A stretch of 64,000 nt of DNA from Cymbomonas tetramitiformis. Taxonomy: Eukaryota > Chlorophyta > Pyramimonadophyceae > Pyramimonadales > Pyramimonadaceae. Made by a program: the position numbers and the translations under genes. Where the stretch lies: contig LGRX02035303.1 in assembly GCA_001247695.2 (NCBI GenBank), positions 1-64,000 on the forward strand, written 5' to 3'. Positions 11,220 to 55,609 of this stretch are shown here, one piece after another. The notes under the pieces are model-generated. The model had not been told where the DNA came from and made no database searches. It saw only the letters and a program-made list of their open reading frames with translations. Positions within the stretch are counted from its first letter, which is position 1. The number at the start of each line of letters is the position of its first letter.

Positions 11220-11228
11220 GTAATATAT

Positions 11229-11935: not shown

Positions 11936-12088
11936 ACAGGGGTCTCCAGTGCCGGAATAACCCCTACTGGCTCACAGGGCAATGTACTCAGTGGTACTGG
12001 ACTCACTGGTACTTGCACCACTTCCCCCCCCCCTGCCGAGGGGGAGACCAGATTTGATGAGATAGGGTATTTCGACAACATTAGTCGT

Positions 12089-21610: not shown

Positions 21611-21744
21611 CAGATCACGATATTGCCATTGCAGATCTTTCTGGAATCCACCAGATCCTCAATATAATTATTGTCATTGCAGATATTCTCCTGAATTCTG
21701 CCTTGCCATCAATTATTTCTTCATACAGCTGTGACTGGCATGCA

Positions 21745-22500: not shown

Positions 22501-22558
22501 CGGTACAACTCCTCCCCCCTCAAGAGCGGCCTATCTCCCGATGCCGCTCCCGGTGTCT

Positions 22559-24900
22559 TCAGGTATCAAGCTCCCCGAATTGAAGATGGTGGAAGAGATG
22601 ACGCAGTAACGGAGCTGGTACGGGGTACACGGCGTGAGCATCTCGCGCCCCTGGTTGCTGTGAAGACGATGGTCCAAGCTGAGCAGTCTCAGGGTGCCCT
22701 CCGGTGGCCCATTTACATGCGCAAGGTGTCCGCGAGGTACATTCCAGCAATGGCGTTGGTGGAGGTGAGCTAGTCCAGATACATGTCGGCTTACGATATC
22801 GCTCCCCATACTTACAGTAGGTGCAAAAAAGAGGCTGTGGCAGTTTACGAACCACTGACCGCAACCGCAGTGCATTCGGGTATCTTCCCTCAGGGTTTTC
22901 AAGAAACCAGTGCTTGGGCTTCAAGTACCCGATAGCATCCAGGGTGCATTTCACACTCTTGTCTGCTCCTTCCAGATCAGGAGGACCTCCCGTAGTGCGC
23001 GCCTGACTGTACTGGGTGCATGGAGGGCTGGCCCAGATGACATCAAAGAATCCCGGTGGATACTGAGTGGGGTCCCAGTCCTCCATTGATGCAAGATGGT
23101 TGGGTTGCCAGCGTGGGTCGTTGTCGAGCGTAACCACCGAGGCAGACGGAAAGCACTTGGCAAACTCCCTTTCCACCGATCCAGTTCCGCTGAACAACAC
23201 CAAGATTCTCACTGGCCGGGTCTTCCGCTCTTCAAGGTCGGTGATCACCACTAGCTCTCCATTCCTCAAGGTTTCCACCCGCTCCCACGGCAGACAGAAG
23301 TCTTCCGGTGGAGAATCCACTTCCGGAACGTCGCATGGGTGTTCCATTAGCTGGGATAAGGTGACGCCAAGGTGGACGGGCTGTCGCTGTTGACGTTGCC
23401 GCCGGTCATGCTCAGTAGACTTCAGCATGTCCGCCTGCATGCCTAATCGTCGTGCCTCGAACTCCTTGAGCTGCTGATTTTCCCCGCCTCTGTCCATCTT
23501 GTCTCTGGAGCGCCACTGGTCGTGAGCTGCCGAGTAGCCCGTCCAGCGTACCTTCCATTCCTCCACAGATTTACCCTTGACCATGCGTACACGATACGCC
23601 AGGATTTTGTCCACGTGAGCTTCCGCTTGCCCATCTACCATTACCGGGTCAGGTACGGGCAGTTGTGCTCGTGATGCAAACTCATCCTTGCCGGAGATGT
23701 ACGGCTTCAGGCGGTGCTGCGCAAACACGTCGTGAATGCGCCAGTGCGGCGGTAGGGCCAACCGATATGCCACCGGTGCCCCGCGGTCCGCCTCTGCCAG
23801 CTCCGCCTGCAAATCGCTGTAGAAGCACTCCACCACGGTTACAGGTCCATGCCAGCGCTTACCGAGCTTTCGGCACAGCGCACGGTCCATCACCTTTTCC
23901 GTCAGATGACGAGCTTCGATCCACACCAGATCCCCCACTGCGTACTTATGCTGCTTGTGACGCCGGTCGAACTGCTCCCGCTGGCGCTGCTGAGCCAACT
24001 CAAGGCGGCCACGCGCGTCTCGCAACTGCGACGAAAACTTCGCAGCCATCTCATGGGCGGTACCCACCCCCCCTTTCCGTCGCGCAGAGCCAGGTAGAGT
24101 TGCAGCTTCCAGGAAAAGGTCTAATTGAGACATCGGGGACACCCCGTAGCATAGCTCAAAGGGCGTGAACCCGGTGATATCACTGCGCGAGTCGTTGATA
24201 GCGAACTCCACGTTCGTCATGTAGAGGTCCCAGTCATCAGGATTGGCACCCACGAACGAGCGCAACATGTCCTCCACCACCCGGTTGGTGTGCTCCGCCT
24301 GTCCGTCTGAACGAGGGTTGTACGGAGTGGTAGAAGCCACCCGTACCCCCATAAGCCTCATTAGCTCACGCCAGAACGAGTCCTGGAACCTGGGGTCACG
24401 GTCGCATACAATCTTCATGGGGGCTCCATGCTGCCTCCAGACAACGTCGAAGTAGATGCGGGCCACCGTTTGCGCAGAGCTGTCCCCAAAGTTCATGGGC
24501 ATAAGGTGCACCATTTTGCTCAGCTTGCACGTGAAGGTGACAAAGGCGTCGTTTCCTTGGGCGGTGAGCGGCAGCCCTGTAACGAAGTCCACGCTCACAT
24601 CCTGCCAGTTGCGTTGGGGAATAGCGTGCGGATTCAATAATCCATCGGGGTAGGATGCCCGGGGACGAACCGCCTGACATGTAGGGCATGAGGCCACCCA
24701 TCCCGCCACATCCTCGGAGGCATTCTTCCACCAGAACCTGCGGAGAACTCTCTCCAGTGTCTTCTCCCGGCCAGTGTGGCCTGCAGCGGTGGAGTCGTGG
24801 GCATCCTTGAAGACTACTTCTCGCAAAGGGGAGTCCTCGCCGAGAACCAACTGGTACCGTCCTGCGGCTACACGCCATAGCACTTGGCTATCCAACGATA
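22559..24900 (-). CDS. Chromovirus 1 integrase, chromodomain and C5-methyltransferase
   Basis: One frame, shifted relative to the methyltransferase frame before it. Integrase: an HDSTAAGH...CPTC zinc-binding region, then SVDFVTGLP, VCDRDPRF and GQAEHTNRVVE for the D,D35E core. Chromodomain near 23630-23440: AHVDKILAYR and WKVRWTGYS, predicted to steer insertion to marked chromatin. C5-methyltransferase near 23220-22600: LVLFSGTGSVEREF (motif I), ASPPCTQYSQ with catalytic Cys (motif IV), FLENPEGR (motif VI) and YRKPTCIW (motif VIII region). The methyltransferase is short, with little room for a separate target-recognition domain. All catalytic residues are kept even though the element is broken elsewhere. 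Confidence 0.85.
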
Positions 24901-25544
24901 CGGAAATCCCTCGTGGCATGGTGCGGGGCCGCAAGGATCTCATCCCGCAGCTGCCGAAGAGGGCCGGCACGTGCATACTCATCGTGCAGGGACTCCAGGA
25001 ATGTAACGTCCGTGGGGAGGCTCGTAGCATCGCGGGTCTCAGCAGCCTTACCCTGTCGCACTATAGGAGGCGCCACTCGGGGATGCCGTACTCTCGGCAA
25101 CAGCTGTCGGGTAGGGGGAGCATGTACCACTAGCACGGGCCACGGAAGGTCGTGAAGTACACCGTCAGGAGTCTCGAACAGCTGTGTGGGTACTCCTCGT
25201 TCGTCATGGGTAGGTATCACTTCCACCAGCCTCATACCAGCCATTCTGAAGAGCCGCCTCCATTGAGGCATGCGGGCCTGGATGTCCGGTAGAAGGAACA
25301 CTGCCGAGGTATGTGCGGGGTCTTGCCGCCATTCGTCCACATACTTACGCAACACCGCCTCGATGGAGATATGACTGCTGGAGTATGGGGGGTTGCACCA
25401 GACGTGCTTTCCCCGCCACTGTTGTTGCAGACAATCAGTCCAGTAGGCGTCCACTTGGCGGTTCCGTCCACCCAGGTCACAACACGCGTCGACGTCGAAG
25501 CTGCCGAACTGTCGTTGGAGGCGCTCAAAGACCTCCTTGCGCAC
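24888..25544 (-). CDS. Chromovirus 1 Dam-type N6-adenine methyltransferase domain
   Basis: About 219 residues with FDVDACCD near the N-terminus, HVWCNPPYSS carrying the NPPY catalytic motif, and FLLPDI afterwards. This is the pattern of the phage-type DNA N-6-adenine methyltransferase family (Pfam Dam). It sits between RNase H and integrase. It is preceded by an in-frame stop and followed by a frame shift into the integrase, so in this copy it is cut off from the polyprotein. The domain itself looks intact. Confidence 0.75.
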   Translation of the reverse strand: MRKEVFERLQRQFGSFDVDACCDLGGRNRQVDAYWTDCLQQQWRGKHVWCNPPYSSSHISIEAVLRKYVDEWRQDPAHTSAVFLLPDIQARMPQWRRLFRMAGMRLVEVIPTHDERGVPTQLFETPDGVLHDLPWPVLVVHAPPTRQLLPRVRHPRVAPPIVRQGKAAETRDATSLPTDVTFLESLHDEYARAGPLRQLRDEILAAPHHATRDFRIVG

Positions 25545-25830
25545 CTTCTAGTCTTGCCGATCGGCTGGGGGCTTGGCGGTTCGACTAGACGGCCGAGCTG
25601 GCCGCTTAGGCCTTCGGAAATCCGTAGCAGGCCGTGTCGAGGTTTTCGGCGTGACGGAAGGAGTCGTCGTAGCAATGGGTTGTCGCAGCCGAGCACTACG
25701 ACGCAATACCGGGGTGGTTCCCGGGGTGCTCGTTTCCTGCCGGTGCTTTCCAGATTCGGACAAATCAGCGAAGTAGTCGGTGGGAGCTCGCAGCATTAGT
25801 TGTGCTTCAGGCTGCATGCTGCATGTTGCA
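25545..25830 (-). pseudogene. Chromovirus 1 linker, frame-broken
   Basis: Between the 21-bp array and the Dam-type domain, one minus-strand frame encodes about 89 residues of Arg/Pro/Thr-rich linker (starting near MQPEAQLMLRAPTDYF). It ends at a stop just before the methyltransferase. The equivalent linker in chromovirus 2 is uninterrupted. Confidence 0.5.
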
Positions 25831-26510
25831 TGCTCAGCTGGGCGTGTTGCATGCTCAGCTGGGCAGGTTGCATGCGAAGCTGAGCTGGCTGCATGCGAAG
25901 CTTAGCTGGTTGCATGCGAAGCTGAGCTGGTTGCATGCTCAGCAAGGCATGCTGCATGCTCAGGCGAGCTGGTTGCATGCTCAGCGAGGCAGGTTGCATG
26001 CGAAGCTGGGCGTGTTGCATGCTCAGCTGGGCAGGTTGCATGCTGAGACCCACTGGTTGCATGCGTAGGCCGGCTGGTTGCATGCGCAGGCCGGCTGGTT
26101 GCATGCTCAGCAAGGCATGCTGCATGCTCAGGCGAGCTGGTTGCATGCTCAGCGAGGCAGGTTGCATGCTCAGCTGGGCGTGTTGCATGCTCAGCTGGGC
26201 AGGTTGCATGCTGAGAGCCACTGGTTGCATGCGCAGGCCGGCTGGTTGCATGCTCAGCAAGGCACGCTGCATGCTCAGACGAGCCGGTCGCATGCTCAGG
26301 CAAGCGTGTTGCATGCTCAGCTGGGCAGGTTGCATGCGAAGCTGAGCTGGTTGCATGCGAAGCTGAGCCGGTTGCATGCCCAGCAAGGCATGCTGCATGC
26401 TCAGGCGAGCTGGTTGCATGCTCAGGCAAGCGTGTTGCATGCTCAGCTGGGCAGGTTGCATGCGTAGCTGAGCTGGTTGCATGCTCAGTAAGGCATGCTG
26501 CATGCCAGGG
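25830..26510 (-). repeat. 21-bp GCATGC array inside the chromovirus 1 polyprotein
   Basis: About 32 units of the type ttgcatgctcagctgggcag plus one base. In the pol frame it adds a repeating heptapeptide (HATCPAE type) of nearly 200 residues after RNase H. The unit shares TTGCATGC with the 3' array. A change of array length that is not a multiple of three probably caused the frame loss at about 25902. Confidence 0.9.
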
Positions 26511-28916
26511 CGCGCTGCCAGCTTGGAGCAGGCTCACCAGGGCTCGCTCCGCCACCTGAAGCGTCTCCACGCCATCCATCCATGACTCCATGGTGGCCAC
26601 CCATCCTGGTACAGGGGGTGGCGGGTGGTCTTCAAAGATCTCCTCGACATCCAGCACGGAGAGCGGGTCCTTGGGGAGGTCCGTCTCCTTGTCAACAACA
26701 CCGGCCTCCTTGAGCCCATCCCGCGGGTCCTTGGTCACGTAGTCAGGTCGGCGGGATAGCGCATCGGGGACCAGAAGGAGGGCTCCCTTGACGTACTCCA
26801 TTCGTGGGACACCGACTTCCACCAGGTCCATGTACCACCGTGCCTGCCGTCGGCTAAGCTCTCGTCCCGGGGACATTAGCCATTCCAGGGGGCGATGGTC
26901 ACCTTGTAACCGGAAGTCGGAGGAGAACAAGTAGTGCCTCCAGGTGACGGTGGTGCAATGGTGCAACGCACAGAGCTCCCTTTCGCCGGTGTGGTAATTC
27001 TGCTCCGCTGCAGAAAACTGCCGACTATCGTAGGCGATCACCCTCATACCGTCTCCCGTATCTTGCATGAGTACGCCTCCCAAAGCAACTCCACTTGCGT
27101 CCGTTTGTACCAAAAACGGCGCTGACCCATCCGCGGCTGCCTTCATGTCGGGCAATGCCAATACTGGGGCTGAGGAAAGAGCGGTCTTCAGCTCGTCGAA
27201 GGCCCATTGTTGGAGTTCTCCCCACTGCCACGGTACATCGGTCTTGGTGAGCGAAGTCAAGGGTTGGGCAATCTCCGAGAACCGGTGCACAAACCGGCGG
27301 TAGTACCCCGCTAGTCCAAGGAACTGTCTGACGTGGGTTACCGTCTCCAGCTTCGGCCAGTCCTTGATGGAGGACACCTTGTCATGCTGAGGTTGGCATC
27401 CTTCGGCGGATAGAGTGTGGCCCAAGAACCGTAGAGACTCCTTCAGCATCTGCGCCTTGGATGCCTTCAGGTATACCCCTTTTTCTCGACAAGTGTCCAA
27501 GAACTGACGTACGTGGTCGTAATGTTCTTCCACCGTGCGTGAGAAGACCACCACATCGTCGATGAAAATCCGTACAAAGGGGAGATGACCAAGTGCACGC
27601 TGCATTCGCCGCTGATACTGAGATGGAGAGTTCTGCAGGCCCTGGGGCATCACCAACCATTCGTAGGCCCCCATCTGGGTGGTGAACGCGGTCTTCTCCA
27701 CGTCCTCCTCGGCCATTGGCACTTGCCAGAATCCGTCCACCGCGTCAAAGGAGGAGAAGAACGCTGCCCCTTGCATCTCGTCAAACATCAGTTGGATGTC
27801 CGGTAGTGGATACCGGTCCCGCACCGTCTGCTGATTCAATTGTCGGTAATCCACCACCAGACGCAATGTCTTCGGATCACCAGGCTTGGGTACCATCAGA
27901 CATGGGGCGGCATACGGGCTTGACGACGGCCGGATGTAACCCTTCTTCATGAGCTGCTCGATGCGTTCACGTAGCTGGCGTAGCTCTTCAGCGGTCATCT
28001 TGTATGGACGCCTACATGGTGGTCCACCCTCCGCGTCCGGCTTGCGATCGATGCGGGCCTTGTCCTCCTCAGTGCGACGCAACTTGGAGGCCTCCGGTAG
28101 AGCTGCACACAGGGTATCTAGATACTTCTCAAAGAAGGCGTCAAAGCGCTGCTTCCACGTGCTGCTTACCGGTGCATCTCGAGTATCTTGACGGGGTCCT
28201 TCCTTCTCCACGGGGGTGTGAGGTGGCGGTACTTCAGCAGCGGTAGCCGCAAAGGCTGCCTCATGGTCGTTCCCGCGCGCGGCCATCATGAGCCACTGAG
28301 GTTGTGACTCTTCATCCCCGGCCAGGCGCCTGGTCTCGGCGTGGATGAGGTGCTGCTTCAGCTGCGCTGCCGTCAAGAATACCTCATCGATCAGCCCCGC
28401 GCCTTGGGCCTTGCCCTGACCCACCCCCGGACTACAGCCCGCGAGTGTCACCCGTTGCTGTCCTCCACCATTTGCTCGCGTGTTGAAGGATACGGAACCG
28501 TGACCGGCATAATCCAACGTGACCGGGGAAAGACTGCGAAGCCACTTACCCCCCAACACCACGTCTACTTGGATTTCTAGCGGCAAGACTCGCAGAGCCA
28601 TTCGCTTCTCGCAGTAGTTTACTCCCGCCGCCGTGTGCGCGGTGAACTTGGTGTACGCCACCTCTCCAGCGGTCTTCACAGATCCATCTGCCAGTGTGAC
28701 CTTCATTGGCGTCCCTGAGCGCACTGTCAAGTCACAGGTACGGGCACAATCCGCCGAGATGAAGTTGTCCGAGGCGCCTGAGTCCACCAGCACCTTTACT
28801 CGGTGCCCACGAAGGTAGGCATAGAACACCAGGAGTAAGGGTCCTTCCTCGTCCCGCACCGCTGACAGTGTGTGTGCCAAGAGTGTCCCTGTTCGAGTGT
28901 TTGCTTTCCAGCGCAC
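25902..28916 (-). CDS. pol: Chromovirus 1 protease, reverse transcriptase and RNase H
   Basis: The frame is 1,004 codons long; the first in-frame ATG is at residue 71, so the true start lies upstream or is lost. An aspartic protease is at residues 40-140 with VLVDSGASDNF. RT spans 305-500 with LVVDYRQLN, YPLPDI and the catalytic FIDD at 451-454. The Ty3-type RNase H spans 580-720 with QTDASG, GERELCA and GDHRPLEW. From residue 805 the frame runs into the heptapeptide array. It copies element RNA into DNA inside the Gag particle. No Gag precedes it. Confidence 0.9.
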   Translation of the reverse strand: MRWKANTRTGTLLAHTLSAVRDEEGPLLLVFYAYLRGHRVKVLVDSGASDNFISADCARTCDLTVRSGTPMKVTLADGSVKTAGEVAYTKFTAHTAAGVNYCEKRMALRVLPLEIQVDVVLGGKWLRSLSPVTLDYAGHGSVSFNTRANGGGQQRVTLAGCSPGVGQGKAQGAGLIDEVFLTAAQLKQHLIHAETRRLAGDEESQPQWLMMAARGNDHEAAFAATAAEVPPPHTPVEKEGPRQDTRDAPVSSTWKQRFDAFFEKYLDTLCAALPEASKLRRTEEDKARIDRKPDAEGGPPCRRPYKMTAEELRQLRERIEQLMKKGYIRPSSSPYAAPCLMVPKPGDPKTLRLVVDYRQLNQQTVRDRYPLPDIQLMFDEMQGAAFFSSFDAVDGFWQVPMAEEDVEKTAFTTQMGAYEWLVMPQGLQNSPSQYQRRMQRALGHLPFVRIFIDDVVVFSRTVEEHYDHVRQFLDTCREKGVYLKASKAQMLKESLRFLGHTLSAEGCQPQHDKVSSIKDWPKLETVTHVRQFLGLAGYYRRFVHRFSEIAQPLTSLTKTDVPWQWGELQQWAFDELKTALSSAPVLALPDMKAAADGSAPFLVQTDASGVALGGVLMQDTGDGMRVIAYDSRQFSAAEQNYHTGERELCALHHCTTVTWRHYLFSSDFRLQGDHRPLEWLMSPGRELSRRQARWYMDLVEVGVPRMEYVKGALLLVPDALSRRPDYVTKDPRDGLKEAGVVDKETDLPKDPLSVLDVEEIFEDHPPPPVPGWVATMESWMDGVETLQVAERALVSLLQAGSAPWHAACLTEHATSSATHATCPAEHATRLPEHATSSPEHAACLAGHATGSASHATSSASHATCPAEHATRLPEHATGSSEHAACLAEHATSRPAHATSGSQHATCPAEHATRPAEHATCLAEHATSSPEHAACLAEHATSRPAHATSRPTHATSGSQHATCPAEHATRPASHATCLAEHATSSPEHAACLAEHATSSASHATS

Positions 28917-36056: not shown

Positions 36057-36151
36057 GGGAAATCCATAGGTTCAACAGTAGTTACTGTCCGGGTGCGTCC
36101 TCCATAATGACGTGGAACTGACGTCAGCGTTTGCCTGTCCGTGTCCTCCGC

Positions 36152-36879
36152 ATACTCGTGAAGGTATCGACTGATTAGACTGATTGATTAATTCAGTCAG
36201 TGACATGAGCGACAAAAACCAAATCAGTTCATGTCACCGACTGAATACGATGTCACCAACCGAATACCAATTAATTCAGAAAACTCTCTCACCTCGCCCA
36301 TCACATATATAAGTAATAATTTATTGCGGTGGGGGGCGACGTATATTAATATTACCGCCAGAAGTTAAGGATATATAATTATATATATGATTTATGGTAT
36401 ATATAATTTATATAACATATTTGCTTGAAATTTCTTGGCGCTTCGCGATAAAGAGGGGGGTGGGGGGAGGTGGGGGGAGTTCTTGGGGTGGGGTAGCGGG
36501 AAGCGTTTCGTGGGGGGAGGGGGGGTTCACGAGGTGGAAGCGTGGGGAGGGGAGGGGGCCCCCCGCCTCCCCCCCCTCTTTATCGCGAAGCGCCAAGAAA
36601 TTTCAAGCAAATATGTTATATAAATTATATATACCATAAATCATATATATAATTATATATCCTTAACTTCTGGCGGTAATATTAATATACGTCGCCCCCC
36701 ACCGCAATAAATTATTATTTATATTTGTGATGGGCGAGGTGAGAGAGTTTTCTGAATTAATTGGTATTCGGTTGGTGACATCGTATTCAGTCGGTGACAT
36801 GAACTGATTTGGTTTTTGTCGCTCATGTCACTGACTGAATTAATCAATCAGTCTAATCAGTCGATACCTTCACGAGTAT
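36152..36879. mobile_element. MULE-like foldback element, 309-bp TIRs
   Basis: The left arm, 36152-36460, pairs with the right arm, 36571-36879, as an inverted repeat without gaps (coordinates sum to 73031 throughout) and with only a few mismatches. The 110-bp centre is a G-rich tract with no gene. Identical 9-bp GTCCTCCGC flanks lie at 36143-36151 and 36880-36888. Long TIRs with a 9-bp duplication indicate a non-autonomous Mutator-like element. The high arm identity suggests recent activity or gene conversion between the arms. Confidence 0.9.
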
Positions 36880-37125
36880 GTCCTCCGCGGTCTTCGACCT
36901 GTCCTCGGCGCCTTAACAGGTCACAGAATTCATTCCACTGGTAATAACCGAGCGTCACGAGATTACGTCGTCTCGTCTCTCGTTTTCTGACCTGCCACCC
37001 AAACCGTAGAACGGCCCTTAATCGAGAGTTTCAGGAATTTTCCAGCTCTCGACGCAGGTGTGCTGTGGTGTACAAGAGTGCAGAGTATACAGACACAGCC
37101 TTCACATCGGCATGCACGCGCGCTC

Positions 37126-38733
37126 ATGATGTTCCCCGCAGCCTCTGGCGGCGAGGCCGGTCAATGGTGCCATGACGGCAAAGGTAACGGACACCACCTG
37201 GCAGCGGTGACAGAGCGAGAGCTGCAAGTCATCAACGACATCCAAACGCAGCGCAGCGCAGCGGACGGGAAGGCAGCTTACATAAGTGCACCCGATGACA
37301 TCAAGTCCAGCAGGGCCGTTGTGATGACTTTCGTTCAAAGATTCTGGAGCGAACTCGGTGAGGTGGCGATGCCCCTCCGGGAGGAGGTCGACGTCATACT
37401 CGCGGCCTTGCGCAATTGTCCCTCGACAGACTCTAGAAAGCGGTGCTTTCGCGCCGTGCCGGAACCCGATGTGCTCAGCGCCGACAAAGGTTTTATGCTG
37501 CAGGCCATGCAGGTCGATCCACACCTCATAGAAGTGGCTTCGGCTGCTCTGATGAAGGACAGGGAGTTCATATTGAGTGCTGCGTCACTCGCAGGTCTGA
37601 CAACACTTCATCATGCCGAAGTGTTTCGTGGTGATAGGGATGTGGTTCTCGCCGCCGTGCAGCAGAATGGCCAAGCTTTAATGTGGGCAACAGAGGAGCT
37701 AAAAGATGATTTGCACATCGCTCTTGCAGCGGTGCAAAACAATGCCGATGCAGTGAACGAAGTCTCGCAACGGCTCCGAGGCGTGAAAGACGTGATGCTC
37801 CTGGCTGTGCAGCAGAAGGGCGAGTTGCTGCGACTTGCTTCTGATGACCTAAAGGAAGACTTGGAAGTGGTTCAGGCCGCCTTGGCACAGGGTGGGAAGG
37901 CCCTGGAGCACGTTGGCGGTGCAGTAAAGGCCGACAGGGAGCTGGTTAAGAGTGCGATTCGAGATTGCGGAAGAGTTTTTGAACATGCTTCGGAGGGGCT
38001 TAGGTCGGATAAGGAGCTTCTCCTTCTCGCCTTGAGTGATAAGAACTCTTACGGGTGGCCCTTTCGGTTCGCCTCCGCAGCCTTGCGAGATGACCCGGAA
38101 GCCTTATTGGCGGCCCTGTCACACCAGGCGCAGTTGCTCAGGTACGCTTCCGAGAGGCTCCGCAACGACAAGGCAATCGCCCTCGAAATTGTGAAACGTG
38201 ACGTCAAGTGCTTTTCGCTGTTCTCCGAGCAGGTTCGTGGAGACAAGGAGCTGGCGCTGCTTGCCGTTACGACTGATGGTATGATGCTTGAGCATGTGAC
38301 GGGGGACTTACGTTCTGATGATGAGGTGGCGCCGGCTGCGATGAAACAAAACTTTGCTGCCAAAAAGTGGGCTGAGGGTAACACCAAGCCGGTTTATCCC
38401 GTTGTCACTGCCGAGGTGATAAAGAATTGGGAAAAACAGGGAATCACTAAGTGGGAGAAGTATCCAAGCCCTACGCCCGTCGTGAAGACCTACCGGTGTG
38501 ATGGTGAACCGATGCAGTTTGAGGTTACAGTGCCATTTTGGGACCATAATAACAAACAGCCGATCGAGTGCATCTATATTAAAGACTGCACAACGAGTGA
38601 AGTAGGTGGTATAAAAGTCCTTCTTCCGATGGAACCGGCCGTGGCCTTCTTTGCACAGTCAAGTGGGACGTTTGCTGTGCATGTCAAGTGCATGGACCGT
38701 GGTGTTTGGGCTTCTGAACCTGTAGTTTGTTGA
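37126..38733 (+). CDS. DUF4116 repeat protein, single exon
   Basis: The start is the first in-frame ATG (MMFPAASGGEAGQ); about 535 residues. From residue about 120 to 425 it holds around six repeats of the DUF4116 type, each with a core like DREVVLAAVQQNGxALxxASxELRxD, for example near DRDVVLAAVQQNG and KDVMLLAVQQKG. These 45-50 residue units are common in giant viruses, stramenopiles and other protists; their role is unknown. The C-terminal 110 residues look like a separate beta-rich domain. No introns. Base composition is close to the gene-rich parts of the window and the frame is intact, so I take it as a real gene. Confidence 0.75.
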   Translation: MMFPAASGGEAGQWCHDGKGNGHHLAAVTERELQVINDIQTQRSAADGKAAYISAPDDIKSSRAVVMTFVQRFWSELGEVAMPLREEVDVILAALRNCPSTDSRKRCFRAVPEPDVLSADKGFMLQAMQVDPHLIEVASAALMKDREFILSAASLAGLTTLHHAEVFRGDRDVVLAAVQQNGQALMWATEELKDDLHIALAAVQNNADAVNEVSQRLRGVKDVMLLAVQQKGELLRLASDDLKEDLEVVQAALAQGGKALEHVGGAVKADRELVKSAIRDCGRVFEHASEGLRSDKELLLLALSDKNSYGWPFRFASAALRDDPEALLAALSHQAQLLRYASERLRNDKAIALEIVKRDVKCFSLFSEQVRGDKELALLAVTTDGMMLEHVTGDLRSDDEVAPAAMKQNFAAKKWAEGNTKPVYPVVTAEVIKNWEKQGITKWEKYPSPTPVVKTYRCDGEPMQFEVTVPFWDHNNKQPIECIYIKDCTTSEVGGIKVLLPMEPAVAFFAQSSGTFAVHVKCMDRGVWASEPVVC

Positions 38734-40072: not shown

Positions 40073-40595
40073 TGTCACAGTCCCTAATCTAGCACACCAC
40101 CTCTGGACTAAATACAGACCAGAGGACACGGGGACAAAACATAAAACTCAAGCGGTCCACTGTGCAATTGTAGGAGTCTACACCTTGACTTCTTCTCTTC
40201 TTTACGGTTTCGGACTTATACTATTCTACACTTATTAAACGACCGCACGAGGTATGCTTACGCTTGGTCAACTACAAGACTTCGGTTTCGTAAATCTATA
40301 TAGTTATGCTTTTGCTATCAGTGCATGCTTTCAATACACAATATACAGCAGTTACGGCTCTTTACTTTTATGTTATACTTTTCAGTTCAGTTCATCTCCC
40401 CGAAACGGGTTACTCTTAGAGTTCTTATACATTCAGGAACTCTTTCCATAACTCAACTGTACTGAGTACTCCGTACAACAGTCTAGGCACCTCACATCAA
40501 CATCATTCTGATCGGTCCTACTGTACTCCGTACTGAGTACTCCTGCGTTTTATACTTAGCCGTTTTTCTTGCTCTTGTGCTTGCCTCCTAGCACA
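40073..40595 (-). repeat. Putative 3' LTR of chromovirus 2
   Basis: On the plus strand the segment opens tgtcacagtccc and closes cctagcaca, so in element sense it runs TGTGCTAGG to CTGTGACA, a TG...CA terminus. A polypurine tract lies directly upstream in sense. An internal ACTGAGTACTCCGTAC-type short repeat occurs twice. The matching 5' LTR is not visible near 48.5-48.9 kb, so the boundary rests on sequence signals only. Confidence 0.4.
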
Positions 40596-40596
40596 A

Positions 40597-40612
40597 CTCC
40601 CCCCCCCTTAGG
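40597..40612 (-). other. Polypurine tract of chromovirus 2
   Basis: In element sense this reads as an A/G-only run with nine consecutive G, next to the putative LTR start. It would prime plus-strand DNA synthesis. Confidence 0.45.
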
Positions 40613-40879: not shown

Positions 40880-41310
40880 CACTTACAGGGGATGACAATA
40901 GGTTTGCCAATTACCTGACAGTTCTCGGGATGCCGGCCCGGAGGAAAGGTTTTAAACCTTCACCGCCTCCTCGGAGTGCTAGAGCTTTTACCCAGATCTC
41001 CAACTGCTGCCCGGTCGTGCCAGGTCCGGAGCCAATGCTCTCGTGAAATGGATTATACAGATTTCCACCTGTTGCCTGGTCGCGCCGAGGCTAGAGCCAC
41101 TGCTCGCTTGGATAGATTACCCAGGTTCTCACCTGCCGCTTGGTCATACCAAGGCTTAGAGCCACTGCTCAAATGGATTATACAGATTTCCACCTGTTGC
41201 CTGGCTGTGCCGAGGCTAGAGCCACTGCTCTCTCGGATGGATTACCCAGGTTCTCACCTGCCGCCTGGTCTCGCCAAGGCTGGAGCCACCGCTCTTCCCG
41301 ACGCTCCCCA
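40880..41310. repeat. Dimeric repeat of about 125 bp in chromovirus 2 3' UTR
   Basis: Two alternating 62-65 bp units, one with gattatacagatttccacct and one with gattacccaggttctcacct, each ending in gagccactgct. At least two full dimers lie between the pol stop and the LTR. Confidence 0.8.
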
Positions 41311-41316: not shown

Positions 41317-44300
41317 TCAATCGCTAAGACCACTCGCGTCAGATTCCCATCCGCCCTCAGGTATGATCGTCACCTCCGCTCGCACTCCCGCTAACGCTAT
41401 CGGTTCCGGCTCAAACTCGGGCGGGTCACTCTCAACAACAGCTGACTGGACTAAAACGCTCATCTCGCTCAGATCCTCCCTGACAAGCAGTTCAGACAGG
41501 AACGCATGCACCTCTTCATGTAGGGTCAGGTTGTGGAAAAGCTGTTTTAACAGTGCTGACGGAATCCCATACAAATTCTCTCGCGCTCCCATGCCCTTCG
41601 CGAACACACCTCCGGCTCTCATCGCGCGCCCTCCTTGCGCTACTTTCTCGTGCCTACCGTGCTGCCGGAAGAACTCGCAAGGCGTATCGGAATCGCACAC
41701 TCGCAAGGGTGTGCGCAACGGAACGTTGGTCCAGATGTGCGTGGGCTTCCTGTATGCGGTCCCGTATTTGCAGTACGTGACGAGGTGCGGAGCTGGTAGA
41801 TTGCTCATGCAGCGACGCGTGTGCAACCCGTGGGGCTCTCTTCCCCTCGGGTTCTCAATGAAGTATGCTTCGGGCCTCAAGTACCGGATGATCTCCAATG
41901 TCCTACGAACTCGCCTGTCCGCAGCGCGCAAATCTCGGATGCCTACCGTCTTCGCCTGGCTGTACTCTGTACAAGGTGGGCTAGCCCAGACTACGTCGAA
42001 GTGTCCTGGTCTGAACTGTCGGTAGTCCCATCGCATGATATCCTCGCAATGTGTGGGGCCCCACTTGGGCTGAATGTCTACAGCAACTACTTCGCTGTTG
42101 GGAAATTGCTTAGTGAACTGCCTCTCGACTGACCCGGTCCCACAAAACAATACAAGAATCTTAGACTGGCCGACTGGCTCCTTCTCAAGTGCTGCGGCTC
42201 CGTTGACTGGCGGCAGGGTGCTCTGAGCAGATACTCTCGCGAAAGTTCCTACCTCCTCATCAAACCTCTCCTCTGGCACCCATGGCATTGCTCCGTCTAC
42301 CTTGAGCTCCTCCGATAGCGTGGTCCATACCGCTCCTGCGGACTCGTCGCGTCTCTTACGGACCCTAAGCTTCTCTCGCTCCACTCTCTTAGCCTCGATC
42401 CTCTCAAACTCCAACAACGCTCGGTTGGGAACACCGGGCCTGCCGGCTCCGTCCCACTCCAGATCCTCTCGGGTCTTCCACTCGTTCTCACTGCGGGGCA
42501 TTCCTGTCCACTTGACCAGGTACTCTGTCCACCTCCTGCCCTGGCGCTGGCGCGTGCGCGAACGCTCCACCCTCTCGACGTGGGTTTCCTTGCGCCCGCT
42601 GACGTCCAACGGAGGAGGGGGAATCTCCTTAGCTCTCTCAACGAAGCGGCTGCCCGACTCTACTGGCGAAAGCCGGTCCACGGTAAACACATCGTGCACT
42701 TTCCACTGCTTAGGCGTCTGCAACCTATAGGCCGACGGTGCGCCTCTATCGCTCGCGGGAAGGGCCATCTGCCTGTCGCTGTGAAAGACTTCCAGCACCC
42801 GAAGGGGCCCAAGGCGCTTCTTAAGCAATTTCTTGTGCAACCCGCGGTCGCCCGGCTGGGTGAGGTGCGTGGCATCCACCCAAACCTCATCGCCTACTGC
42901 GTAACTCCTGGACCTGTGACGCGCGTCGTACTGGGCGATCTGTTGCTGCTGAGCTAAGAGCAGCTTCTCCCTAGCGAGCTGCAACTGGCGAACAAACTGG
43001 CGGGCTGTCTCGTGGGCTGTACCCTTTTTTACTGCTGCGCCCCTCCCCCCCTTAGCTCGGCCTCTCCGTGATGCAAGTGCTGCCTCCACGAAGAAGTCCA
43101 GCTGAGAGGCCGGAGCGTGACCATACGTCAGTTCAAAAGGGGTGAATCCCGTGACGGCGGAACGAGAGTCATTAATGGCGTACTCGACCGGGGTACACCA
43201 TAAATCCCAATCGTGCTGGTTGGCGTCGACGTACGCGCGCAACATGCGTTCGACCGTGTGGTTTGTGTGCTCTGCCTGCCCATCACCTTGTGGGTGGTAC
43301 GGCGTGGTAGAGGCAACCTGGACTCCCATCAACCGATGTAGCTCGAGATGCATCTCATCCCTGAAGCGGGAGTCCCGATCACAGACGATCTTCATGGGAG
43401 CGCCGTGCAAACGCCACACTTGGTCGAAATACATGCGCGCGATCTGTGCAGCTGAGCTGTCAGCGTAAAGCATGGGAACTACGTGCACCATCTTGGACAA
43501 CTTGTCCGTGAAGGTAGCAAACGCGTCGTACCCTCGCTCTGTGCGGGGCAGCCCAGTGACGAAGTCGATACTAACCACTTGCCACAGTCTTACTGGGACT
43601 TGCAGGGGGTTAAGCTGACCGTCTGGATACCCGTTGCGTGGCCGGGTCTGTTGGCACACAACGCAGGATTTGCACCAGTCGGTGACATCCTTGCTCATGC
43701 GTGGCCACCAAAAGCGACGGGATACTCTGTCCAGTGTCTTATCCCTTCCTGTGTGCCCTGCTGCTGGGGACTCGTGTGCTTCGCGCATCACCAGCTCTCT
43801 GAGGGGGGAATCCTGAGCTAGCACTAGCTGATACCGCCCTTCTGCCACTCGCCATATCATGTCGTCTACCATGCGAAATGTGTCTGTCCTCTGATGTGGG
43901 GCTGCGATCAGTTCCTCCTTCAACGAGCCGAGGTACTGGCTGCGTTCGTATTCCGCTTGCAAGGCGCGGACGAACTCATCAGCCTTCAGTGGGCCTGATG
44001 CCGCCCTGGCCCTTGCTGCAACCCCTGTAGTGACTAAAGGTTCGTCGGATTCTGCCTCATTGTCCTTTCGCGCAGGCGGCGCTCGGGGCTTTGCCCTGCT
44101 GGCTGCTGGGGCCCACACCAGAAGGACCGGCCAGCGCAGCGGGGGTCGACCTCCATCAGGGGACTCGAAGAGGTGGTTGGGACGACCTTTTTCGTCCTTC
44201 GTGTCAAAGACTTTGACCGGATGAAGCCCATACTTGGGGTGAATCAACCGCCTCCAGGGGGCGTCATAGTCTGGCAGAAGGAACATCGCCGAGGTGTTTT

Positions 44301-47300
44301 CCGGATCGGCGCGCCACTCAGCAAGGAAATGCCGAAGAATTCTTTCTATCAAGTCTGAATCCTTCGTGTAAGGGGGGTTGCACCAAACGTGTTTCCCGCG
44401 CCACTTTTCCTTCAAGCAATCGGTCCAATAGGTGTCAACCTGCCGGTTAACGCCCATGGAGTCGCAACATGCGTCAACGTCAAACACCCCGTACTGGGCT
44501 GCTATCTCCTCAAAGCGCTCCCTGATCAGCTTCCAGTCCTGGCGATCTACGACCTGGTCGTAGTGGGAGCTACTTTCTGGGGGCTTAACGGGCTCAGGTA
44601 CCTTTCCGGCCGCCTTTGGATGACTCTGGGCCTCAGGGTGGGGGAACTTCGGGTGACTCTGGACTTCTGCTGTGGCCTGTTCCCTAGCTCGGTCTGCTCT
44701 GGTCATGACTGCTAGCGATTCGGCATCCCTCAAGGATTTCTCGCCTACTGCTAGGGTGGCAGCTGCGTCCAGCCAAAGGGCCGGCGACTCTACCCACGTG
44801 AGCCCATTCAGATGGGTGAGCTCACCAATGACCGGTGCTGGACTGGTGGGAGGGAAGGACTCGTCCTCGGAATCACTATACTCGAAGGTGGCGCCTAAGA
44901 CAGATGTGGGATCCTCGTCCCCTTCGCATCTCTTGCCTTTCGGCTCAGAGTACTCGGGTCCATCAGATCCATCGGTGGTGCGATCCACTGCCCCGAGGAC
45001 AGAGGTAGGATCCTCGTCCTCTTCGGACCCCTTGCCTGCCGGTGCGGAGTCTCTGGGCCCATCCGTGGCGCGATCCACAATCCCTTTTTCCTTCAACCCT
45101 TCTCTGGCTGACATTTCCTGATAGTCTGGTCGCCGGGACTGCGCGTCTGGTACTACTAAACAGCGCCCTGGCACGTGCTCCATCTGATGGACTCCTACCT
45201 CTACCAAGTCCTCGTACCAGCGAGCCTGACGTCGGCTGAGCTCCCTAGCTGGGGCGAAGAGCCACTGAAGGGGTTTATGGTCTCCCATGAGCTTAAATGA
45301 TGTGAAAATCAGATAATGTCTCCAGGTGACCGTGGTGCAGTGATGGATGGCACAAAGCTCCCGTTCCCCAGCGTGATAGTTCTGCTCTGCGCTGGAGAAC
45401 TGCCGGCTTTCAAAGGCCAAGGGCTGTAAGCCTCGTCCCTGATCCTGCATGAGTACACCCCCTAGTGCTACTCCACTGGCATCTGTCTGCACAAAGAAGG
45501 GTCTGGAACCGTCTGCTGCACCCTTTTGATCGGGTAGGGCCAAGGCTGGGGAGGAGATCAAGGCAGTTTTTAGCTGTTTAAATGCTGCCTTTTCATTCTC
45601 GCCCCAGGTCCAGTCCACGCCGGATTTGGTGAGGCGGGTCAACGGGTACGCGATATCTGCGAAGTTCTGGATGTACCTCCGGTAGAAGCCACACATGCCC
45701 AGAAACTGTCGCACGTGTGTGACAGTTTCTAGGTCTGGCCAATCGCGTACCGACGCAACCTTATCCTGCTGTGGACGACATCCATCCCGATCCACCACAT
45801 GCCCTAGGAACCGGACTGATCGCTTGCACAATTTGACTTTCGACTTTTTGAGGTAGACTGAATTCTTTCGGCATGCCTCCAGGACCTGGCGGAGGTGGTC
45901 GAGGTGTACCTCATGGGCGCTCTTACCCGGAACCTCAGCCGAGAAAATCATGATGTCATCTACAAATACTCTGCAAAAGGGTAGGTGCCCGAGGTACTGT
46001 TGCATCATCCTTTGCCAGGTACTTGGGGAGTTTGACAATCCCATAGGCATGACCAACCACTCGTACGCTCCAAAGTGCGTAGTCATTGCGGTTTTCTCCA
46101 CGTCCTCTGCTTTCATAGGGACCTGCCAAAATCCCCAAAGGGCATCCATCGTAGAGAAGACGGTAGCCCCTTGTAGATCATCTAAGAGACTCTGGACATC
46201 CGGGAGGGGGTACTTGTCCTTGACTGTGATCTCATTGATCTGTCTGTAGTCAATGACTAGACGCAACTCCTTGGGATTACTCGGCTTGGGGACCATCAGC
46301 ACAGGGCAGCCCCACGGAGAGGCCGAGGGTCGTATGTACCCTTTGGCTAAGAGCTCATCTAGCTGTTGCCGGAGTTGCCGCAACTCCTCCTGCGACAGCT
46401 TGTACCCTCGCCGGTGCAAGGCGTTCCCATTCCAATCTGGCCTGAGCCGGACGCCGGACTTGAATTCCCTTGACTGGACTGATTCCGGCAACTCTGTGCA
46501 AATGACATCTGCGAACTCCTTTTCCAGGTCCCTAAGCTGCTGCCAGATTTCCGGCGACACCGTCTCGTCTATCTCGTCCTCCGGCGGTTCCGGGGAGGCC
46601 TCCTCGGCAGCGCGCTGATCGGAGATCCTGCGCTCCTCGGCAGCTCTTTGACTCTCTTGGAGTTGCCGAGACAGCTGTTCCAGGCGAGCCTCGGCAGCTG
46701 CCTCCCGAGCTTGCGACTCCTTCTGCCAGGCTTCCTTCAGCTCTTGCAGGTCCTGACTGTTCCTGCTCGAAGTGGACTCCGGGGACGACGACGTGTTCCC
46801 TGAGGAAGTCGGACCGGGGTGCGGGGCCGATGGTGCTCGACTGGGCTTCCGGGTGCGAGGCACCGGGCGACTGGGGCTGCTCGGCTTAGGCGCCTGAGTC
46901 CTGGGCCTCGGACGTTCCGCGGGATGCTCTTCCTCCGATGAGGACGAGAGGGGAGCAAACCGGTTCGACCAGTTCCCACCGGGGGCTGCGGAACTCGGAG
47001 GTGCTGTACCTGACTTCCTAAGACCCCTGTGTGACTTCCGGGTGCGGCCGCTCATTCTGACGGCCGCGACGACCGCTCTCCTTACCTCCTGGAGGTCCGC
47101 CCCTTGGCGTACCAGCTCCCCTGGTCTGCCGGCGTTGATGGCAAAGACAGAGAATCTACACCTCCCAAGGGAGTTGTGAGGGTCCTCGCGCTTTTGCTGC
47201 ATCAACACCCTGGACTCGGAGACTGACTGCTGGTGGATCTCCAGACGATAAGCGCCGTCCTCGGAGAGCCCATAGTCCTCGAGCTGGAACCACATTAGCC

Positions 47301-48525
47301 CTGACAGCGGGTGGTCTTTCCCCAGGCGCTTTAGGCCTCGACGGATGTCCTGCCACATGGACTTCTGGTCGGAATCCGAGCAAGAGCTGACACCGGATGA
47401 GGTTCCCGCCTTCCTTACCGGACGCCGAGCACTCGTTCCCTGGGACGAGTCCGAGCTGACTGGGGTCGTCCTGGGGAGCCGGCGCCATTCGCGAAGACAC
47501 CTCCTGCCCATCTGGGTCATCCGGTGTCTCCGGGCTCCAACCCACCAGGTGCTCCTCTCCTTGGCGAGCATCGTCTGCTGGTGCCATGCCATGAAGACAG
47601 CTCCAGCTTGACGTCTGCCTCTGCGCCACAGACCCTGTGTCTGGACAACATGCTGGCGCCATGCTGCGAAAGCGGACTCGACCCGGCGCCGACTGCCTTT
47701 GTCAAACAGGCCTTGAAGTTGGGCGACCTGTTGGGTGACGTCATTCCACGCTTGGAATGCCAGGCGCCGGAGCTCGCGCTGATGCGCTGACTGGTCCGTC
47801 CTGGCCCTCCATGCGACCCACGCAAGCGGCGCTGTTGCGCGCTGACGAGATGGCAGGGAGACTCTCGCACGTCGTTGCGCTGAATTCAGCGCCCAGGTGC
47901 TCCATTGACGGAGGGCCAATGCGAGCATGGATTGACGTCGCTCTCCTCGCCAAGCCGGATTGGGCTGGATGCGAGACTCGCGCCCCCGTGACTCGACGAC
48001 GTCTAGCTGCTCTGGGCGCCGGACATCATCAGACTCCCCTTCTGCCGGGGGACTCCAGTCACTGGCTCGGTAAACCTCAAAGCGCCCTGGGGCACTGATG
48101 AGATTCCCTTGCTCGCTCCCCACGAGGGAAGAGAGGGAGGATGCTGCCGGTCCCGACGTCGGTTCCTGACGGACGACCCTACTACTCGCACTCCTGCTGG
48201 ACGCAGGGAGTGGGGAGAAGGGGGCTGCCGAGGGGTTCAACCCCTTAGCAGAGCGGTCCGAGTCCGACCCGGAGCCGGCGCCTGCCGCCGGCGGTGCCGG
48301 AGCCTCGGGCGACGCACGCTTCCGGCGCGCCGGCTGCCGTAGCGCCGAGCTCAATGCGAGCTCGGACACTGGCTCAGCTCCACTGACCCTCGCTGGTGAA
48401 GGGGCTTTTGGTGGCGAGGCCCGGGGGGGCCCACCAGACAACCCTGGAGGGGCTCTCAGGGGCGTGCGCGCCGGTGTAACCTCGAGGGCCTCACCGCCGT
48501 ATTGGCGTGCAAGCGCACGCCGCAC
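41317..48525 (-). CDS. pol: Chromovirus 2 polyprotein with dual methyltransferase domains
   Basis: 2,402 codons without a stop. The first ATG is at residue 200 (47928) and the frame stays open upstream of 48525, so the start is unsettled. Residues 200-350 hold Sfi1-like repeats (AFQAW, AFAAWRQ, VFMAWHQ); 590-645 a coiled coil; RT 715-905 with FVDD at 854-857; RNase H 985-1110 (TDASG, GERELC, GDHKPLQW). A Dam-type methyltransferase follows at 1330-1475 with DVDACCD and NPPY at 1383-1386. Integrase 1575-1810 has the HHCC site, D1654, D1716 and E1752 (35 residues between the last two). The chromodomain is at 1980-2045 (YLVKWTGMP). The C5-methyltransferase at 2120-2300 has LVLFCGTGSVE, catalytic C2185 in SPPCTEY, and ENPRG. 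Inference: the element could methylate its own DNA before or after integration. Confidence 0.9.
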   Translation of the reverse strand: MRRALARQYGGEALEVTPARTPLRAPPGLSGGPPRASPPKAPSPARVSGAEPVSELALSSALRQPARRKRASPEAPAPPAAGAGSGSDSDRSAKGLNPSAAPFSPLPASSRSASSRVVRQEPTSGPAASSLSSLVGSEQGNLISAPGRFEVYRASDWSPPAEGESDDVRRPEQLDVVESRGRESRIQPNPAWRGERRQSMLALALRQWSTWALNSAQRRARVSLPSRQRATAPLAWVAWRARTDQSAHQRELRRLAFQAWNDVTQQVAQLQGLFDKGSRRRVESAFAAWRQHVVQTQGLWRRGRRQAGAVFMAWHQQTMLAKERSTWWVGARRHRMTQMGRRCLREWRRLPRTTPVSSDSSQGTSARRPVRKAGTSSGVSSCSDSDQKSMWQDIRRGLKRLGKDHPLSGLMWFQLEDYGLSEDGAYRLEIHQQSVSESRVLMQQKREDPHNSLGRCRFSVFAINAGRPGELVRQGADLQEVRRAVVAAVRMSGRTRKSHRGLRKSGTAPPSSAAPGGNWSNRFAPLSSSSEEEHPAERPRPRTQAPKPSSPSRPVPRTRKPSRAPSAPHPGPTSSGNTSSSPESTSSRNSQDLQELKEAWQKESQAREAAAEARLEQLSRQLQESQRAAEERRISDQRAAEEASPEPPEDEIDETVSPEIWQQLRDLEKEFADVICTELPESVQSREFKSGVRLRPDWNGNALHRRGYKLSQEELRQLRQQLDELLAKGYIRPSASPWGCPVLMVPKPSNPKELRLVIDYRQINEITVKDKYPLPDVQSLLDDLQGATVFSTMDALWGFWQVPMKAEDVEKTAMTTHFGAYEWLVMPMGLSNSPSTWQRMMQQYLGHLPFCRVFVDDIMIFSAEVPGKSAHEVHLDHLRQVLEACRKNSVYLKKSKVKLCKRSVRFLGHVVDRDGCRPQQDKVASVRDWPDLETVTHVRQFLGMCGFYRRYIQNFADIAYPLTRLTKSGVDWTWGENEKAAFKQLKTALISSPALALPDQKGAADGSRPFFVQTDASGVALGGVLMQDQGRGLQPLAFESRQFSSAEQNYHAGERELCAIHHCTTVTWRHYLIFTSFKLMGDHKPLQWLFAPARELSRRQARWYEDLVEVGVHQMEHVPGRCLVVPDAQSRRPDYQEMSAREGLKEKGIVDRATDGPRDSAPAGKGSEEDEDPTSVLGAVDRTTDGSDGPEYSEPKGKRCEGDEDPTSVLGATFEYSDSEDESFPPTSPAPVIGELTHLNGLTWVESPALWLDAAATLAVGEKSLRDAESLAVMTRADRAREQATAEVQSHPKFPHPEAQSHPKAAGKVPEPVKPPESSSHYDQVVDRQDWKLIRERFEEIAAQYGVFDVDACCDSMGVNRQVDTYWTDCLKEKWRGKHVWCNPPYTKDSDLIERILRHFLAEWRADPENTSAMFLLPDYDAPWRRLIHPKYGLHPVKVFDTKDEKGRPNHLFESPDGGRPPLRWPVLLVWAPAASRAKPRAPPARKDNEAESDEPLVTTGVAARARAASGPLKADEFVRALQAEYERSQYLGSLKEELIAAPHQRTDTFRMVDDMIWRVAEGRYQLVLAQDSPLRELVMREAHESPAAGHTGRDKTLDRVSRRFWWPRMSKDVTDWCKSCVVCQQTRPRNGYPDGQLNPLQVPVRLWQVVSIDFVTGLPRTERGYDAFATFTDKLSKMVHVVPMLYADSSAAQIARMYFDQVWRLHGAPMKIVCDRDSRFRDEMHLELHRLMGVQVASTTPYHPQGDGQAEHTNHTVERMLRAYVDANQHDWDLWCTPVEYAINDSRSAVTGFTPFELTYGHAPASQLDFFVEAALASRRGRAKGGRGAAVKKGTAHETARQFVRQLQLAREKLLLAQQQQIAQYDARHRSRSYAVGDEVWVDATHLTQPGDRGLHKKLLKKRLGPLRVLEVFHSDRQMALPASDRGAPSAYRLQTPKQWKVHDVFTVDRLSPVESGSRFVERAKEIPPPPLDVSGRKETHVERVERSRTRQRQGRRWTEYLVKWTGMPRSENEWKTREDLEWDGAGRPGVPNRALLEFERIEAKRVEREKLRVRKRRDESAGAVWTTLSEELKVDGAMPWVPEERFDEEVGTFARVSAQSTLPPVNGAAALEKEPVGQSKILVLFCGTGSVERQFTKQFPNSEVVAVDIQPKWGPTHCEDIMRWDYRQFRPGHFDVVWASPPCTEYSQAKTVGIRDLRAADRRVRRTLEIIRYLRPEAYFIENPRGREPHGLHTRRCMSNLPAPHLVTYCKYGTAYRKPTHIWTNVPLRTPLRVCDSDTPCEFFRQHGRHEKVAQGGRAMRAGGVFAKGMGARENLYGIPSALLKQLFHNLTLHEEVHAFLSELLVREDLSEMSVLVQSAVVESDPPEFEPEPIALAGVRAEVTIIPEGGWESDASGLSD
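41628..42168 (-). other. C5-cytosine methyltransferase domain (part of polyprotein)
   Basis: Residues about 2120-2300. The SAM-binding loop LVLFCGTGSVE, the PPC motif with nucleophile C2185, ENPRG, and CKYGTAYRKPTHIW are in canonical order. At about 180 residues it is much shorter than host DNMTs, with little space for a target-recognition domain, and it resembles compact phage-type enzymes. Confidence 0.85.
44103..44538 (-). other. Dam-type N6-adenine methyltransferase domain (part of polyprotein)
   Basis: Residues about 1330-1475, between RNase H and integrase. FDVDACCD, VNRQVDTYWTD, WRGKHVWCNPPY and MFLLPDY follow the phage Dam family pattern of a substrate-side NPPY motif and a hydrophobic strand ending in LLP. 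All expected motifs are present in this intact copy. Confidence 0.75.
44895..45085 (-). repeat. In-frame tandem duplication in the pol linker
   Basis: Residues about 1150-1215 contain a duplicated acidic block ending EDEDPTSVLGA and GDEDPTSVLGA, about 37 residues apart. It sits at the same place between RNase H and the Dam-type domain where chromovirus 1 carries its 21-bp array. Confidence 0.7.
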
Positions 48526-48707
48526 TCCCCCCCCCCTCTCACGGGAGCGCCAATCCCGGCTGTCTGACCCGCCAGCCGCGCCCCAGAACTCCCCAGAGCC
48601 TGGGCCAACCGACAGGCCCGCAGCGCGAGACCCTACGGTCCTAGCAAATTGTAGTATGTGTACTAAAGGTGTCCTAAAGGCATAGTAAAGGACAGTTAGT
48701 ACGTATG

Positions 48708-55520: not shown

Positions 55521-55609
55521 GTGTATTTATACTATCTATAACCCCCTAAATATCATCACGCCCATACTACCGAGCCGTCAACCCCGCCGTGCGACACGGC
55601 GAAATCACG

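Follow-up and report, generated by a model that had tools for sequence, protein, structure and literature searches.

The locus at 41317..48525 on the minus strand of the DNA analyzed here, a 64,000-nt stretch of Cymbomonas tetramitiformis contig LGRX02035303.1 (the window), carries a defective copy of a Ty3/gypsy-type LTR retrotransposon that is abundant in the genome. We are close to certain that the element itself is a chromodomain-bearing Ty3/gypsy LTR retrotransposon whose pol includes both a Dam-type (N6-adenine) and a C5 DNA methyltransferase domain. Sequence comparisons indicate that this predicted architecture is ancient and that its parts have been inherited together within a wider clade. 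The best overall explanation combines the defective window copy, the two-methyltransferase element, the co-inheritance of its domains and a proposed marking of the cDNA and/or insertion site; taken as a whole, we regard it as evenly balanced between right and wrong.

Domain organization of the window copy

The open frame at 41317..48525 (minus strand) comprises 2,402 codons from a GTG, or 2,464 codons from stop to stop, and fuses a Gag-like N-terminus to pol. A Pfam search of the Gag-like residues 1-640 returned no match. Downstream, and likewise on the minus strand, are a reverse transcriptase (RVT_1, residues 745-910, 45796..46293; 106.7 bits), an RNase H (RT_RNaseH, residues 1007-1108, 45202..45507; 97.3 bits), the Dam-type domain (PF05869, residues 1316-1480, 44086..44580), an integrase with H2C2 zinc-binding region and D,D35E rve core (residues 1573-1745, 43291..43809), a chromodomain (PF00385, residues 1982-2023, 42457..42582; 31.5 bits, cut-off 25.1) and the C5 DNA methyltransferase domain (PF00145, residues 2115-2339, 41509..42183). 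As read from the translation, the Dam domain bears NPPY at residues 1383-1386 (44368-44379, minus strand), and the C5 domain bears PPC with the catalytic Cys2185 (41971-41973, minus strand) followed by ENP at residues 2224-2226. The integrase D and E are separated by 35 residues, counted by eye. The original prediction had placed reverse transcriptase, RNase H, Dam with NPPY, D,D35E integrase, chromodomain and C5 with PPC within one 2,402-codon frame, and this reading of the frame was borne out.

Profile searches, which had been proposed as a check, placed both domains in methyltransferase families using Pfam and PHROGs. The Dam domain scored 34.5 bits with PF05869, and 38.2 bits when searched as a 233-aa piece, against a cut-off of 28.1, in a match that spans positions 8-78 only of the 169 in the profile and includes the NPP[YF] motif as NPPY. 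With a cut-off of 22, the PF00145 DNA_methylase score of the C5 domain was 23.1 bits for a piece of 327 aa and 21.0 bits, just under, for one of 894 aa. PHROGs families annotated 'DNA methyltransferase' were retrieved by both the Dam piece (phrog_111, 6.7e-13) and the C5 piece (phrog_757, 3.3e-17), and the NCBIfam matches to phage_N6A_met and dcm were both under their cut-offs. For the integrase, Integrase_H2C2 scored 84.8 bits and rve 23.1 bits, the latter under its cut-off of 32.6. An AlphaFold2 model of the C5 domain was confident (pLDDT 93.8, pTM 0.90; 50 sequences), and that of the Dam domain was weak (pLDDT 68.1; 2 sequences).

The single Gag-Pol frame is private to the window copy

The description of this copy as intact was contradicted by comparison with complete copies, since its 5' LTR, its leader and ~4.8 kb of interior that includes the protease are absent. 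The Gag-like 5' part (46602..48633, minus strand) is truncated at 48633 and corresponds to positions 2063-4100 of contig C6775 with 98.0% identity. The window copy follows that sequence from 48633 to 46601, skips ~4.8 kb, protease included, at a junction near 46601 (46586..46618, minus strand), and then continues to the 3' LTR; residues 1-641 and 642-2402 of its frame are thus separated by ~4.8 kb in the complete copy. The protease of the missing stretch is present in copy C18028 (PF13650, 32.4 bits). A 33-mer across the junction has a single exact occurrence in the 851.7-Mb genome (25,745 contigs), at the window copy. Taken together, the private junction and the missing interior indicate that Gag and Pol were joined into one frame by a deletion peculiar to this copy, or possibly by misassembly. 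A reading of residues 1-641 as a foreign repeat was rejected, as comparison with C18763 and C6775 identified them as the element's own Gag-like region.

The 3' end of the window copy (minus strand) is made up of a 111-nt tandem direct repeat between the pol stop and the LTR (41046..41281), a G-rich polypurine tract immediately before the LTR (40596..40612) and a 3' LTR with termini TGTGCTAGG...CTCCTACA (40168..40595) that is 98.6% identical to the 5' LTR of C6775.

Structure of complete copies and class assignment

Two complete copies, C18763 and C6775, measure ~14.4 and ~14.6 kb and are bounded by LTRs of 0.43 kb that begin TGTGCTAGG and end CTCCTACA, with TG...CA ends in both. Both are flanked by 5-bp target duplications (GAGAC and GCTTC) and have a G-rich polypurine tract preceding the 3' LTR; the sequence AAATGGTAATTAG lies directly behind the LTR. 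The LTRs of each pair are 98.8% and 98.4% identical, respectively, with a Kimura distance of 0.012 in both, and this low divergence suggests recent movement of the two copies. A view of the element as lacking LTRs was rejected, as C18028 is 5'-truncated and LTRs are present further 5' in C18763 and C6775. Of 12 copies whose ends were compared, 11 shared the sequence upstream of the false 5' end, and the 3' end motif was found in 11 and absent from the stretch of C18243 that was read.

The layout of the complete copies is LTR, Gag frame, overlapping pol frame and LTR, with pol in the order protease, reverse transcriptase, RNase H, Dam, integrase, chromodomain and C5 methyltransferase. In C18763, a Gag frame of 1,457 codons overlaps by 322 nt a pol frame of 2,755 codons in a different phase; a simple in-phase slippery heptamer was looked for in the overlaps of C18763 and C6775, and none was found. 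The 'chromovirus polyprotein' of the original prediction stood as a chromodomain Ty3/gypsy-type element with both methyltransferase domains, but not as one intact polyprotein, given the two overlapping frames of C18763.

The Ty3/gypsy order of protease, reverse transcriptase, RNase H and integrase is found in the C18028 protease combined with the window domains, as well as in a second family described below. A DIRS-like repeat arrangement was ruled out by the ordinary terminal direct LTRs of both complete copies, and the window frame gave no Pfam match to Phage_integrase (tyrosine recombinase), having H2C2 and rve instead. We classify the element as Ty3/gypsy-type with a predicted chromodomain C-terminal of the integrase, and as chromovirus-like by virtue of that chromodomain, chromodomain-bearing Gypsy lineages being known outside the chromoviruses (PMC12477816).

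Abundance in the C. tetramitiformis genome

Published C. tetramitiformis assemblies span 281.3 and 914.3 Mb (52.5% and 51.4% G+C, respectively), and genome size has been estimated at 0.85-1.2 Gb (PMC10675990, PMC5741210). A first look returned 8,603 candidate places for the Dam piece and 7,958 for the C5 piece; the best 150 of each, which are the best copies by construction, were scored at 100% and 99-100% identity, respectively, with 0 stops. Frames of at least 2,400 codons enclosed 40 of the best 150 Dam places, and frames of 2,745-2,765 codons enclosed 26. Allowing up to 3 mismatches, 27-nt motifs from the Dam and C5 domains matched 900 and 768 genome sites, respectively, with 0 for either reversed control; such counts miss strongly diverged copies and are numbers of places, not a share of all copies. 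With respect to the suggestion that most copies might have lost their catalytic residues, these counts speak in favor of retention insofar as motif sites are kept at hundreds of places, and leave the proportion of copies aside. Over its full length, the C5 piece shared 99% identity with CYMTET_12107 of C. tetramitiformis, and further Cymbomonas proteins matched the window element. A dinoflagellate host was rejected on the strength of the CYMTET_12107 match and of 0 exact matches for the 21-nt dinoflagellate spliced leader; the lack of any PF02429 match is weak evidence, since its control gave no match either.

A second family with both domains

The window contains a second, decayed related element at 22559..28916 (minus strand) with protease, reverse transcriptase, RNase H, Dam, integrase, chromodomain and C5 regions in broken frames. 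Relative to the family of the 41317..48525 element (family A), its Dam region (25128-25544, minus strand) is 57% identical and its C5 region (22562-23203, minus strand) 50% identical, the latter with a weak Pfam match of 15.8 bits. The best 150 of 7,542 first-look candidates for the second-family Dam piece were scored at 99% identity, and one contained a stop. Between families A and B, pN was 0.30 for Dam and 0.35 for C5, compared with 0.28 for reverse transcriptase, 0.26 for RNase H, 0.28 for integrase and 0.48 for the chromodomain, while pS was 0.74-0.84, indicating saturated synonymous change. The similar pN values, read against saturated pS, suggest that Dam and C5 are constrained roughly like the core enzymes reverse transcriptase and integrase. 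Two 21-nt tandem arrays are associated with the second element, one at 25737-26603 encoding 7-residue repeats of the HATxxxE type in the RNase H-Dam linker, and one at 21668-22576 just behind the C5 end.

Relatives and co-inheritance of the two domains

Searching 5.8 billion proteins with the C5 region yielded 52 long polyproteins, 7 from Cymbomonas and 45 from other collections. All 52 contained WASPPC, in a set whose retrieval by way of C5 favors C5 retention and would miss C5 loss. A Dam domain was detected in 44 of the 52 by a profile iterated on the same proteins in which it was then counted, so that calls with a degenerate motif rest partly on the profile alone; NPP[YF] was present in 35 of the 44 and degenerate in 9, and 8 polyproteins were without Dam. 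Precomputed Pfam annotation placed PF05869 in 26 of the 52. Of the 44 Dam domains, 42 were located between RNase H and integrase, and those of P0054 and P0055 followed the C5 domain; C5 stood directly behind the integrase-chromodomain tail in all but P0023 (51/52), where it was N-terminal. A search with the Dam region retrieved 22 proteins, several of them short annotated ones without a C5 domain.

Tree distances of Dam and C5 correlated with those of reverse transcriptase and integrase at r 0.82-0.88, compared with 0.87 between reverse transcriptase and integrase themselves, in the 40 of 63 scanned elements (window copy included) whose four domains were all of sufficient length; the largest r among 1,000 permutations of any comparison was 0.31. 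A reverse transcriptase plus integrase tree of 52 elements, drawn with an arbitrary outgroup and without support values, separated a small branch having C5 without an internal Dam from a large branch having both. The simplest reading is that C5 was gained first and that Dam was inserted once between RNase H and integrase; Dam would later have decayed in several lines, with a separate C-terminal Dam in P0054 and P0055. Since the second family has both domains, 44 of 52 relatives have Dam, and the Dam and C5 trees follow those of reverse transcriptase and integrase, the pairing is no accident.

Origin of the methyltransferase domains

The predicted C5 domain is closest to small phage enzymes. 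In a comparison with 50,697 phage records, the C5 piece gave 11 matches at 28.6-34.4% identity, among them inoviruses, the Bacillus phages BM15 and CM1, a Haloferax virus and others, and an IMG/VR scan added 16 relatives that were 28-40% identical. Against solved structures, the C5 profile matched Dnmt2 tRNA methyltransferases best (~1e-6, with about half of the profile covered), followed by '5-cytosine DNA methyltransferase' and then by Dnmt1 chains. No Dnmt3-named chain was present among the 19 solved-structure matches (E up to 0.1), which makes a Dnmt3 origin, as described for the Klebsormidium Gypsy and Symbiodinium DIRS elements (PMC5890265), less likely. For Dam, neither tblastn against phages nor a pattern scan of IMG/VR found a relative, and its phage link is through profile matches only.

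Proposed role and alternative explanations

The location of Dam beside RNase H, and of C5 on the integrase tail, suggests that both enzymes would travel in the particle responsible for synthesis and insertion of the cDNA. We propose that the two domains are produced as parts of Pol and would act in or near the pre-integration complex, with Dam, adjoining RNase H, marking adenines in newly made double-stranded cDNA, and with C5, carried by the tail of integrase and chromodomain, marking cytosines of the cDNA and/or the insertion site. The new copy would then enter chromatin already modified, which could protect it, allow it to be recognized as self or preset its chromatin state. De Mendoza and co-authors reported that a retrotransposon C5 enzyme methylates CG de novo, and suggested self-methylation of cDNA (PMC5890265). 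That DNA self-marking is the main role of these putative enzymes falls, in our judgment, slightly short of an even chance.

Several results were counted against a methylation role, namely the degenerate Dam motif in 9 of the 44 Dam-bearing relatives, the absence of Dam from 8 of the 52, the Dnmt2-like nearest structures and the lack of a clear CpG-transition trace. The last comes from two sets, each of 30 loci chosen for having the best protein matches, in which 214 and 244 of 435 possible pairs had the same orientation, at least 1,000 aligned bases and at least 90% identity. In set one, CpG transitions between copies occurred at 0.0144 versus 0.0079 for CpH and 0.0069 for GpC, a weak excess among non-independent pairs; in set two, the respective values, again from non-independent pairs, were 0.0084, 0.0080 and 0.0074, with no CpG excess.

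Two alternatives seem to us about equally unlikely. The first holds that C5 modifies RNA, either genomic RNA or a tRNA primer, and that Dam is mainly a nucleic-acid-binding or structural domain, catalytic in part of the clade. The ranking of Dnmt2 tRNA methyltransferases as best solved-structure matches is consistent with RNA modification, but these matches reach 1e-6 over only about half of the C5 profile, and the nearest named sequence relatives of C5 are annotated phage DNA methyltransferases. Likewise, the 9 of 44 Dam domains that keep the fold signal without NPP[YF] fit a structural function, whereas the retention of that motif in the other 35 argues for catalysis. The second alternative, also improbable in our estimation, is that C5 matters for directing or locking in, together with the chromodomain, a silent chromatin state where the element inserts, which would let copies persist unnoticed, with adenine marking of minor importance. 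The position of C5 directly behind the integrase-chromodomain tail (51/52) and its invariant motif (52/52) support this proposal, as do the absence or degeneration of Dam in 17 of 52 relatives and the silence of most copies of the Symbiodinium C5-bearing elements (PMC5890265). Nevertheless, C5 conservation is inflated by C5-based sampling, the constraint on Dam between families A and B is similar to that on reverse transcriptase, and the Dam tree follows that of reverse transcriptase. Finally, we give almost no weight to the Dam-C5 pairing being an artefact of assembly or a chance juxtaposition: the Gag-pol junction in the window is unique and might reflect misassembly of a repeat-rich genome, but Dam and C5 are separated by 2,385 nt in each of contigs C3347, C3758, C18243 and C6445, the second family has both domains, and polyproteins from other sources carry both, so that an artefact of the pairing is already contradicted.

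Returning to DNA self-marking, its most far-reaching form is possible but doubtful: a large, old clade would possess a built-in two-base system, with 6mA set by a phage-type Dam and 5mC by a small phage-type C5, that dual-marks its own cDNA before or at integration. If true, this would represent a eukaryotic counterpart of phage self-modification, evading nuclease or host or viral defence and presetting the chromatin of the new copy. A clade that retains an adenine and a cytosine methyltransferase together over long divergence would give mobile elements a novel means of governing their epigenetic state. Nanopore reads went into the published Cymbomonas assembly (PMC10675990), and both marks on element copies may be directly checkable in such data if the raw signal was kept.

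Other features of the window and genome

Between 49282 and 53825, a near-palindromic sequence, GAACATGGCCATG, has 17 matches with up to 1 mismatch (expected 0.10), which are all of those in the window; some adjoin apparent intron borders, suggesting possible introner-like elements in a split gene. An inverted repeat at 36151-36880, with 320-nt arms that are 98% complementary and 90 nt apart, is hairpin-like or may represent mobile-element ends. It is followed at 37060-38733 by a 557-aa frame with six DUF4116 stretches (207.9 bits). A 753-aa frame at 55589-57850 has a partial DNA polymerase B match (44.5 bits) and could be a viral or Polinton-like remnant. Other retroelement pieces occupy 9840-13201 on the plus strand, where rve (29.0 bits, below its cut-off) is followed downstream by Retrotrans_gag (40.3 bits). 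Elsewhere in the genome, a D12-class adenine methyltransferase (L001, G000:C1:178186-178992; PF02086, 152 bits) is the sole match to its family; its 418-kb contig is perhaps the ~400 kb giant-virus insertion reported for Cymbomonas, or a bacterial contig.

Comparison with known systems

Retrotransposons of charophytes and dinoflagellates are known to carry C5 methyltransferases (PMC5890265), as the original prediction had stated. KnitGypsy-Dnmt3 of Klebsormidium nitens shares with the Cymbomonas element the LTR Gypsy type and a C5 methyltransferase in the Pol frame, and has a Dnmt3-related enzyme and repeats arranged as in DIRS elements (PMC5890265). In contrast, the Cymbomonas element has a C5 domain nearest small phage enzymes, ordinary LTRs and, in addition, a Dam domain. 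SymbioDIRS-Dnmt3 and SymbioLINE-Dnmt of Symbiodinium are likewise high-copy retrotransposons with a C5 methyltransferase, but they are DIRS (tyrosine recombinase) and LINE elements for which that report describes no Dam (PMC5890265), unlike the Cymbomonas element with its DDE integrase and chromodomain. A retrotransposon-borne Dam-like adenine methyltransferase is also found in DIRS-class elements, which are tyrosine-recombinase elements with no C5 domain described in the account given there (cited in PMC5890265). The small phage C5 methyltransferases (phrog_757; Inoviridae sp. ctPFb548, BM15 and CM1), at ~200 aa and with 34% identity over ~70% of the query, are stand-alone phage genes, whereas the C5 domain of the Cymbomonas element is part of a Pol polyprotein.

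In the same alga, Chlamyvir-related chromoviruses are Ty3/Gypsy elements with a chromodomain-bearing pol, and the word 'methyltransferase' is absent from the main text that describes them (PMC10675990). Cymbomonas scaffolds with >10,000-fold coverage and homology to chromodomain, RNase H and cytosine DNA methyltransferase were reported in 2015 (PMC5741210); their domains were not joined into an element in the main text, from which 'adenine' is absent, and these scaffolds are very likely pieces of the present elements. Earlier publications already cover retrotransposons with C5, DIRS elements with Dam and the C5-bearing repeats of Cymbomonas. Our searches of open-licence PubMed Central papers brought up no description of both methyltransferases in one retrotransposon. 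Elements with a single DNA methyltransferase are familiar, and what the Cymbomonas element and its relatives appear to add is an adenine and cytosine pair kept through long divergence.
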